A stretch of DNA of 43,281 nt, from positions 1 to 43,281 of the forward strand of contig NZ_JAIBNX010000040.1 of the NCBI RefSeq assembly GCF_026130045.1, given 5' to 3'. Positions 7,372 through 38,598 of the stretch are shown here, one piece after another; the first letter of the stretch is position 1, and each line of letters starts with the position of its first letter. Source of the DNA: Micromonospora sp. CPCC 205371 (GTDB taxonomy: Bacteria; Actinomycetota; Actinomycetes; Mycobacteriales; Micromonosporaceae). A program made the position numbers and the translations under genes. The notes beneath the pieces are model-generated. The model was given only the letters and a program-made list of their open reading frames with translations. It had not been told where the DNA came from and searched no databases.

Positions 7372-7787
7372 GCGACGGACGAGTCGACCGGGCGGTCGCG
7401 TCGGCGGGGTTCAGGCCTCGCCGCCGAGGAACGTCCGGACTCCGTAGGGCAGGGTGGTTGCTAACGGCAACCCGGGGTGACCCGCGGGAAAGTGCCACAG
7501 AAAATAGACCGCCGGGCTTCGGCTCGGTAAGGGTGAAACGGCGGGGTAAGAGCCCACCAGCGTCCCGGGTGACCGGGACGGCTCGGTAAACCCCACCCGG
7601 AGCAAGGCCAAGAAGGGCCGCCGCCGCGAGGCGGTGGCTCGCGCAGGCGTTTGAGGGCTGCCCGCCCGATGCCTGCGGGTAGGCCGCTGGAGCCTGCTGG
7701 CAACGGCAGGCCGAGATGGATGGCCGCCGGCCGGCGACACCATCGCTGGCAACAGAATCCGGCGTACAGGTCGACTCGTCCGTCGCA
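7372..7787 (+). ncRNA. rnpB: RNase P RNA (M1), bacterial class A
   Basis: Catalytic RNA of RNase P, which matures tRNA 5' ends. The ends pair as P1: GCGACGGACGAGTCGACC at 7372-7389 with GGTCGACTCGTCCGTCGC at 7769-7786. Conserved core blocks are present in order: GAGGAACGTCCGGACTCC near 7426, ACAGAAAATAGACCGCC near 7497, GGTAAGGGTGAAACGG near 7526, GGTAAACCCC near 7584 and ACAGAATCCGGCGTACAGG near the 3' end. The flanking GCGAGT/ACTCGC bases may extend P1. A TAGAAT box at 7360-7365 is seven bases before the inferred 5' end. The exact ends are approximate by a few bases. Confidence 0.95.
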
Positions 7788-36159: not shown

Positions 36160-36288
36160 CGCTCACCGTGGTCGAGCTTGAACCGTGGGCGACGAGGCTC
36201 ACCCCCGTCGTTATTGTGATGCCCACCACCTGTTATGCCTGCTAACTTGCGGGCTACGGCATCGAGGGAACCAAGTAACGGCCCGACC

Positions 36289-36490
36289 CGCCGGCAGAGA
36301 GAGCCACCAGCGGCTGTGACGGTGGCCCGGCGCCGGGGCGCGAAGACACTCCCGAGCCGATGTGAAATGAGGCCCCTCCGGGGGTGAAGGCGCGGTGGCA
36401 CCGCGAGTTCCCCACTCGCCCGCGCCCAATCGGGGCTGTGACGATGCGCCGGTCCTGGCGGACCGGCGGTGTTGCGCGATGCCGAGGAGG
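36289..36490 (+). promoter_or_regulatory. T-box riboswitch leader of aspS
   Basis: The invariant T-box GGTGGCACCGCG is at 36394-36405; its UGGC (36396-36399) would pair with a GCCA tRNA end, as in tRNA-Asp and tRNA-Asn. A short stem I is visible: CGCCGG (36289-36294) with CCGGCG (36327-36332), a CAGAGAGA bulge, GCCACC with GGTGGC, and a 12-base loop ending in GAC (36318-36320), the Asp codon. Downstream is GCGAG-CTCGC pairing and a CCGGTCC/GGACCGG hairpin without a T-tract. The GAGGAGG ribosome site and an upstream CCCCTCC (36373-36379) suggest translational control. Stem assignments are by eye. Confidence 0.8.
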
Positions 36491-37771: not shown

Positions 37772-38009
37772 GCGCCGTGGGCGCGCTCTCCCGCGTCGCG
37801 GCGTGCCGGGTGCCTGCGCCGTGGGTGCGCTCTCCCTGCCGGGCCGTGCCGGGCGCTTGCGCCGTGGGTGCGCTCTCCCTGCCGGGCCGTGCCGGGCGCT
37901 TGCGCCGTGGGTGCGCTCTCCCTGCCGGGCCGTGCCGGGCGCTTGCGCCGTGGGCGCGCTCTCCCTGCCGGGCCGTGCCGGGCGCTTGCGCCGTGGGCGC
38001 GCTCTCCCC
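37772..38009. repeat. 43-bp tandem array
   Basis: Four near-identical 43-bp units start at 37816, 37859, 37902 and 37945 (each begins GCGCCGTGGG(T/C)GCGCTCTCC). A degenerate unit lies before (37772) and a truncated one after (37988), ending at CCCCGCCGATCAAGG. There are no spacers, and the unit length is not a multiple of three. Confidence 0.95.
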
Positions 38010-38090
38010 GCCGATCAAGGGCAGATGCACGTGGTTGGATCTCTTTTCCGCGTGCGTTTGCCCTTGGTCGATGGGTTTGCCCTTGATCGG
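38008..38090 (+). repeat. Foldback element left end (83 bp)
   Basis: It begins CCGCCGATCAAGGGCAGATG and ends CCTTGATCGG. Its first 48 bases are identical to the reverse complement of the last 48 bases of the unit at 38366-38448. Internally it can fold as GATCAAGGGCA-ATGCACG against CGTGCGTTTGCCCTTGGTC. Confidence 0.92.
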
Positions 38091-38463: not shown

Positions 38464-38537
38464 GCGCCGTGCGGACGGGCGCCGTGCGGACGGGCGCCGT
38501 GCGGACGGCGCCGTGTGGACGGGCGCCGTGTGGACGG
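38464..38537. repeat. 15-bp tandem array (GCGCCGTGCGGACGG type)
   Basis: Five units of 14-15 bp (GCGCCGTG(C/T)GGACGG), preceded and followed by shorter GCGCCGTGC pieces. It directly flanks the right end of the foldback element and shares GCGCCGTG with the 43-bp unit. Confidence 0.85.
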
Positions 38538-38598
38538 GCGCCGTGCGCGCCGTGCGGCGGGCACGGTCGGGGAGTGTCGGCCGGGGGTGGGGAGAGGG

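Follow-up and report, generated by a model that had tools for sequence, protein, structure and literature searches.

We here describe a leader at positions 36257–36426 of a 43,281-nucleotide stretch of DNA from Micromonospora sp. CPCC 205371, this whole stretch hereafter being called the window, which is very probably a T-box riboswitch, with uncharged tRNA-Asp as its signal and translation of a second, archaeal-type aspartyl-tRNA synthetase (AspRS) as its target. The reading is supported by the predicted fold, by a conserved GAC specifier, by a UGGC bulge complementary to the G73-CCA end of the tRNA, and by tight linkage to the gene downstream, aspS2. Table 1 gives the coordinates of the features within the leader, together with other features of the window.

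The Rfam T-box model RF00230 aligned end to end with positions 36253–36426, at 34.8 bits and an E-value of 2.4e-6 with 321 bases searched. When the whole genome was searched, the same 34.8-bit site had an E-value of 1.6e-5, and the only other site up to an E-value of 10 was the leader of ileS (L001), at 43.4 bits. Both scores lie below the gathering score of 93 and annotation at that score therefore misses both sites, the sole match in the window at Rfam gathering scores being RNase P. The search with Rfam T-box models that a preliminary description of this DNA had proposed thus gave a match, albeit one below the gathering score.

Table 1. Features of the T-box leader, of aspS2 and of the remainder of the window
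Feature	Position	Strand	Basis and remarks
Possible -10 element TAACTT	36243..36248	+	By-eye inference; just 5' of the leader; similar hexamers before relatives' leaders
Stem I, long canonical form	36257..36359	+	Covariance model alignment; base helix, K-turn-like GA step, specifier internal loop, upper helices and apical region; helices 1–5 of the 42-pair structure
Specifier loop, 5' side (ACCAAGUAA)	36270..36278	+	Aligns with RF00230 AGUA consensus; AGTA invariant in 15/15 rows
AGAGA bulge, half of presumed elbow-binding double T-loop	36298..36302	+	Aligns with AGAGA consensus; invariant in 15/15 rows
Stem I apical loop, other half of presumed double T-loop	36309..36320	+	Covariance model alignment; includes non-specifier GAC 36318–36320
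Specifier GAC, predicted partner of tRNA-Asp anticodon GUC	36345..36347	+	Covariance model alignment; sits in GAA-GAC-A
Stem III	36373..36384	+	91.7% of cells paired; double changes in 3/4 pairs
Antisequestrator	36389..36426	+	A1 36389–36395/36420–36426; bulge UGGCACC 36396–36402; A2 36403–36408/36414–36419
Enlarged hairpin between antisequestrator and Shine-Dalgarno	~36443..36480	+	Fold; limits approximate; no U tract after it
Shine-Dalgarno GAGGAGG	36484..36490	+	Sequence reading
aspS2, archaeal-type aspartyl-tRNA synthetase, 418 aa	36497..37753	+	NF003483, Pfam, 1n9w
RNase P RNA, bacterial class A	7380–7782	+	278 bits; no other Rfam match of the window reaches its gathering score
Tandem array after aspS2	37772–38013		43-base unit, 5.6 copies
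Palindromic repeat, ATGCACGTGGTTGGATCTCTTTTCC type	~38014–38090		Found again beside this genome's ileS T-box (L001:1-60)
Tandem array after aspS2	38464–38547		15-base unit, 5.7 copies

The T-box motif itself, the 12-mer GGTGGCACCGCG, was found at 36394–36405, exactly where the preliminary description had placed it, with 0.18 matches expected in the window. Genome-wide, its pattern gave 43 matches compared with 54 for the reversed pattern, a count at chance level, and we rejected the bare 12-mer as evidence for a T-box. The single-sequence fold of the leader was likewise no more stable than those of shuffled sequences (z -0.15). These two results would suit a relic or a chance structure without function, which we nevertheless consider extremely improbable in view of the covariation described next, the conservation across families and the genome-wide linkage to aspS2.

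For the structure test, 42 pairs named by hand in stem I, stem III and the antisequestrator were scored on an alignment of 15 leaders lacking stem II (alignment A3). It was found that 95.5% of the cells were paired as compared with a shuffled mean of 87.2%, and that 21 pairs carried double changes with 8.7 expected, neither value being reached in any of 500 shuffles, which leave the relatedness between leaders in place. Further pair types numbered 37 against 31.6, with 4 of 500 such shuffles as high, and slid versions of the structure had at most 52.9% of cells paired. Within stem I, 93–100% of the cells in helices 1–5 were paired in this alignment, helix 2 being invariant and helices 1, 3, 4 and 5 having double changes; one stem I pair is non-canonical in the window sequence. 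The GAA directly 5' of A1, a purine-flanked discriminator, was invariant in all 15 rows. Across a larger set of 78 loci, 917 of 936 cells were paired when seven pairs of A1 and five of A2 were counted; U-A and C-G replace each other in A1, and C-G and G-C in A2, while a sixth A2 pair was unpaired in 9 of the 15 rows of the smaller alignment. The first bases of the T-box bulge were UGGC in 71 of the 78 loci and UGGU in the remaining 7. At five loci upstream of aspS2 (L164, L166, L169, L173 and L239) the bulge reads UGGCACA instead of UGGCACC, its last base being constant in the other loci read. Judged by this covariation among relatives and by the match to RF00230, the T-box in front of aspS2 is real, as its identification in the preliminary description had it.

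The anatomy of the leader departed from that description in several respects. A compact stem I starting at 36289 had been claimed, and short stem I forms had been given as the actinobacterial habit; on the alignment, stem I of the window genome is instead the full-length long form, beginning 5' of that position. Stem II is absent from the window leader. The GAC at 36318–36320, probably the one that had been noticed there, lies in the apical loop and was rejected as specifier because it is not conserved in close relatives, reading GAG in L010 and L016 and GAA in L041. The conserved specifier is the GAC further 3' (Table 1); among the 92 loci that a script labelled as having a long stem I, it was GAC in 91 and UGAC in one, with AAC seen in none. 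A scan for the sigma-70 consensus gave no promoter site for the leader.

Also with regards to the tRNA, the genome itself fits this specifier. Its tRNA-Asp (L106) is the ligand that the specifier predicts; it has the anticodon GUC and a G73 complementary to the UGGC bulge. The preliminary description had left the choice between Asp and Asn, of which only Asp agrees with the specifier. That the element senses tRNA-Asn is very improbable, although the tRNA-Asn of this genome (L100) also ends in G73 and although in Clostridium acetobutylicum a T-box associated with a redundant AspRS is reported to sense tRNA-Asn and to lie on a gat operon; against it stands the almost uniform GAC of the long-stem loci. 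Most likely, the switch measures the loading of tRNA-Asp and turns on the second, archaeal-type AspRS.

The mechanism that we propose is as follows. The anticodon of uncharged tRNA-Asp would read the GAC specifier, and its NCCA end would pair with the bulge and keep helix A1 closed, which would leave the Shine-Dalgarno region free. With charged tRNA, A1 would be able to open, and its 3' strand could then pair with the Shine-Dalgarno region. In many relatives the 3' strand of A1 is extended to ACCUCC. When this strand and the next bases were paired with the Shine-Dalgarno region of the same locus, the energy was -10.2 kcal/mol as compared with -9.5 ± 0.14 kcal/mol for permuted partners, with none of 2000 permutations as low, a test in which the relatedness of the leaders again stays in. 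For the window (locus L003) this helix comprises just five pairs, at -8.6 kcal/mol. We also folded 75 of the 78 loci with the antisequestrator either forced (ON) or excluded (OFF), leaving out L065, L072 and L074 whose start is unclear, and the Shine-Dalgarno sequence was more open in the ON state in 69 of the 75. This calculation failed for the window itself, where the Shine-Dalgarno sequence was unpaired at 0.11 in ON and 0.79 in OFF. In addition, the A2 loop and the bases immediately 3' of A1 show a conserved complementarity of CCC to GGG, as low in only 1 of 2000 permutations. This pairing may belong to the OFF state, perhaps as a pseudoknot that masks the Shine-Dalgarno sequence.

The same T-box could alternatively act by transcription attenuation, with the hairpin that precedes the Shine-Dalgarno sequence serving as a terminator lacking its U tract. 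That hairpin is GC-rich, and it is shorter in most other leaders read. The ON/OFF fold of the window, going the wrong way for translational control, would favour attenuation, as would the hairpin and U-run that a script flagged 3' of the T-box in orthologues of Chloroflexota (L157, L176, L178, L182, L185 and L189) and Bacillota (L198, L200, L204 and L207), with 8 further loci set apart as uncertain; this mode thus occurs among the wider relatives. We still hold attenuation to be improbable at this locus: no terminator-like site was found in the window leader, the 3' strand of A1 and the Shine-Dalgarno region are matched across loci, and the script flagged only 2 of 117 actinomycete T-box loci, namely L057, where the U-run lies within the antisequestrator loop, and L158, which has a weak hairpin with UUUU. 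Owing to the lack of a terminator, the pairing of A1 with the Shine-Dalgarno region and the ON/OFF folds, translational control is probably the better reading for the group; for the window sequence it is only inferred.

Conservation of the motif and of stem I before orthologous genes, whose absence the preliminary description had named among its refuting signs, was evident in the family of the host. This family is very probably Micromonosporaceae and the genus Phytohabitans, for the leader of L068 (G320), from the same genus as the window, is identical to that of L129 (Phytohabitans flavus). The T-box core was present in 60 of 60 family loci read, 62 to 143 bases 5' of the start, and R1, a covariance model built from the aligned leaders, matched 285 of 354 family genomes at an E-value of 1e-6. 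The aspS2 gene, searched at 1e-80, was found in 286 of these genomes and gave no match in 68. Taken together, 280 genomes had both T-box and gene, 6 the gene only, 5 the T-box only and 63 neither. For three (G240, G278 and G319) of the gene-only genomes, which further comprise G101, G134 and G222, repeating the R1 search at an E-value of 0.001 still gave no match. In three of the T-box-only genomes (G057, G168 and G291), the aspS2 copies behind the T-box leader (L229/L231, L230/L232 and L235) are broken or partial, and T-boxes kept before such copies suggest that aspS2 is dispensable in some lineages; as for the other two, the locus reaches the contig edge in G179, while the copy in G352 is of full length, at 39% identity. 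Within 1.5-kb flanks, lipA lay upstream in 52 and lipB downstream in 38 of the 60 family loci, both being present in 36, and neither was found at 26 loci outside the family.

Of 394 genomes drawn from across the class, 36 had aspS2 above the cut-off; 33 of these lie outside the family, 19 of them with a full bacterial AspRS too and 14 without. A T-box was found in all 19 non-family genomes having both enzymes (18 by sequence, and G360, where the gene is interrupted, by model). It was found in none of the 14 having the archaeal-type AspRS alone, which gave no R1 match under strict filters and no core in the eight leaders read. In one such family (f39; L088 and L090–L096), where this is the sole AspRS, hardly any leader seems to precede the gene, which appears to begin just after a TAGGAT element in six of eight cases, as judged by eye, and after TAAACT in two.

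R1 itself matched 36 of the 394 genomes, and the genes downstream were aspS2 in 21 cases, ileS in 7, a bacterial aspS in 2 and serS in one, with one stem I lacking a core and 4 further matches. The two T-boxes before bacterial-type aspS (L256 and L263 in G480 and G656; NF001750, 649 and 645 bits) are ultrashort with GAC, and neither genome belongs to the set carrying the archaeal-type gene. The T-box before serS (L247 in G576; TIGR00414, 363 bits) is a closely related long-stem form with the specifier UCC (Ser), and a similar stem I with UCC in G410 (L250) had no T-box core found after it. The core pattern was also present in 59 of 80 named loci. Forty-four of the 45 named actinomycete loci could be assessed, L177 having no upstream sequence; the core was found in 39, four had the variant bulge UGGCACA (L164, L166, L169 and L173), and one (L151) had no recognisable T-box. 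Since the named and unnamed locus sets overlap, their counts are not to be added. A T-box precedes aspS2 in most examined actinomycetes with the extra gene, in several architectures.

These architectures comprise, among orthologous leaders of aspS2, a long stem I with stem II, a long stem I without stem II, and an ultrashort form. By script, 92 of 137 T-box loci were labelled long, 36 ultrashort and 9 other, the ultrashort label being a loose one that includes L161, which is in fact long, and L135, which by eye appears to have no stem I at all. On a 52-row protein tree the long and ultrashort forms need 7 changes, 6 of them forced by starred branches, and because of the mislabelled L161 the true number is lower than 7. 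Of 31 loci treated as ultrashort, 3 had a stem II motif of AGTAG type, and variants such as GGTAGA were visible in some others; between specifier and T-box, none was seen by eye in L052, L057, L059, L164, L169 and L173. In two leaders upstream of aspS2 (L074 and L155), stem I appears reduced to the base helix GGAG/CUCC with GAC in a loop of 6–7 bases, as though all of its upper part had been deleted there. A protein tree of 78 rows grouped most of the actinomycete genes of the T-box type with sequences from Chloroflexota and some Bacillota, several of whose leaders have the script-flagged hairpin and U-run, and L086 and the rows for sole AspRSs stood apart. The three Chloroflexota rows of the 52-row tree fell within its actinomycete part, which makes gene exchange between the phyla likely, in one direction or the other.

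The product of aspS2 matched NF003483 at 514 bits (cut-off 353), in line with the archaeal-type assignment made earlier, and TIGR00458 at 330, below the cut-off of 368. Its nearest PDB chain was 1n9w, aspartyl-tRNA synthetase 2, also named as non-discriminating and archaeal-type. His24 and Pro79 of the product align with the His and Pro of 1n9w and were invariant in 16 sequences of the T-box type, at positions that we take to be two anticodon-domain determinants of AspRS discrimination; Glu or Asn and Lys stand there in L088 and L094, where the enzyme is the sole AspRS and has no T-box, and also in L086, where a T-box is present. The aspS2 product is thus presumed to be non-discriminating. It was also clear that it is a second AspRS, as had been proposed, for the genome encodes a bacterial AspRS (721.6 bits) as well as gatB, the preliminary description having pointed to both a canonical AspRS and gatCAB as genes to look for. 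No AsnRS was found, a result that is based on tblastn with AspRS2 and not on a model for AsnRS itself; at E-values up to 1, this search gave, besides AspRS2, only the bacterial AspRS, LysX and LysRS.

With regards to physiology, we favour, with some reserve, the view that aspS2 is a spare non-discriminating synthetase, turned on when the housekeeping bacterial AspRS fails to keep tRNA-Asp charged. The gene might instead serve ordinary formation of Asn-tRNA, by supplying Asp-tRNA-Asn to GatCAB, a proposal that concerns physiology only, with the T-box switch common to both. Such a role would agree with the match of His24 and Pro79 to an enzyme named as non-discriminating, with the presence of gatB and the AsnRS search, and with the U1-A72 pair of the tRNA-Asn, which bacterial GatCAB needs according to the portion of PMC4206432 available to us. 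It is, however, somewhat unlikely, since the specifier is Asp and not Asn, and since 68 of the 354 family genomes had no aspS2 match at 1e-80, three of five looked at holding broken or partial copies. In genomes that really lack aspS2, both tRNAs must therefore be served by another enzyme, presumably the bacterial AspRS.

That actinomycetes have a second AspRS is already known; the consulted sections of PMC4206432 list 15 genera outside Deinococcus-Thermus with an extra AspRS, 10 of them, primarily Actinomycetales, without AsnRS; that paper names the T-box twice, both times among its references. Thermus thermophilus has likewise an archaeal-type second AspRS named as non-discriminating (AspRS-2, PDB 1n9w), but the two leaders read from Thermaceae relatives (L196 and L208) showed no T-box core. 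T-boxes of Actinobacteria have been described before ileS, with sequestration of the Shine-Dalgarno sequence proposed (Seliverstov 2005, PMC1262725, as excerpted), and the same genome also has one there (L001). The present leader shares with these, as far as the seen text of PMC1262725 goes, its place before a synthetase gene in Actinobacteria, the T-box bulge, the lack of a terminator and a Shine-Dalgarno sequence thought to be sequestered; it differs in having an Asp specifier, a second, archaeal-type synthetase downstream, and a long stem I with double T-loop motifs but no stem II. The passages seen of PMC7583486 describe a short or ultrashort stem I without double T-loop as usual, not universal, in translational T-boxes, a few of which have a long stem I, and the window stem I is, by comparison, long, with the AGAGA and apical loop motifs present. 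With the glyQS T-boxes of Bacillus and Geobacillus, as presented in those same passages (PMC7583486), it shares the long stem I, the lack of stem II, and a discriminator with stem III, A1 and A2; those T-boxes, however, act on transcription and sense tRNA-Gly, whereas no terminator was found in the window leader. In C. acetobutylicum one of three aspS genes has a T-box (PMC2494555, seen in extract), and the likeness is that an organism with GatCAB has a redundant AspRS under such a switch. In the window, by contrast, the specifier is GAC, the gene stands alone and the Shine-Dalgarno sequence is probably sequestered. In the literature covered, to which the key surveys of 2008–2015 do not belong, we found no report of an Asp T-box in Actinobacteria or before their second AspRS. 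The T-box database TBDB was searched for Actinobacteria with a class II model, according to the part of PMC7778990 at hand, and these leaders may already be listed there.

In that literature translational T-boxes are described mainly from ileS, and aspS2 provides a second, widely conserved case, whose set of leaders could be used to test which parts a T-box can do without and how the transcriptional and the translational kind turn into each other. The T-box also suggests a purpose for the second AspRS of actinomycetes. We tentatively raise the possibility of a wider picture, in which, throughout Actinomycetota, induction of a spare non-discriminating AspRS by a tRNA-Asp T-box would give tolerance when the housekeeping AspRS is blocked, for example by natural antibiotics resembling aspartyl-adenylate. 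One leader lineage, whose terminators occur in Chloroflexota and Bacillota but are almost absent from Actinomycetota, would have switched, in one direction or the other, from control of transcription to control of translation or back at a single orthologous gene, and stem I would have been cut down several times within Actinomycetota, leaving T-boxes without the elbow-binding double T-loop or a recognisable stem II.
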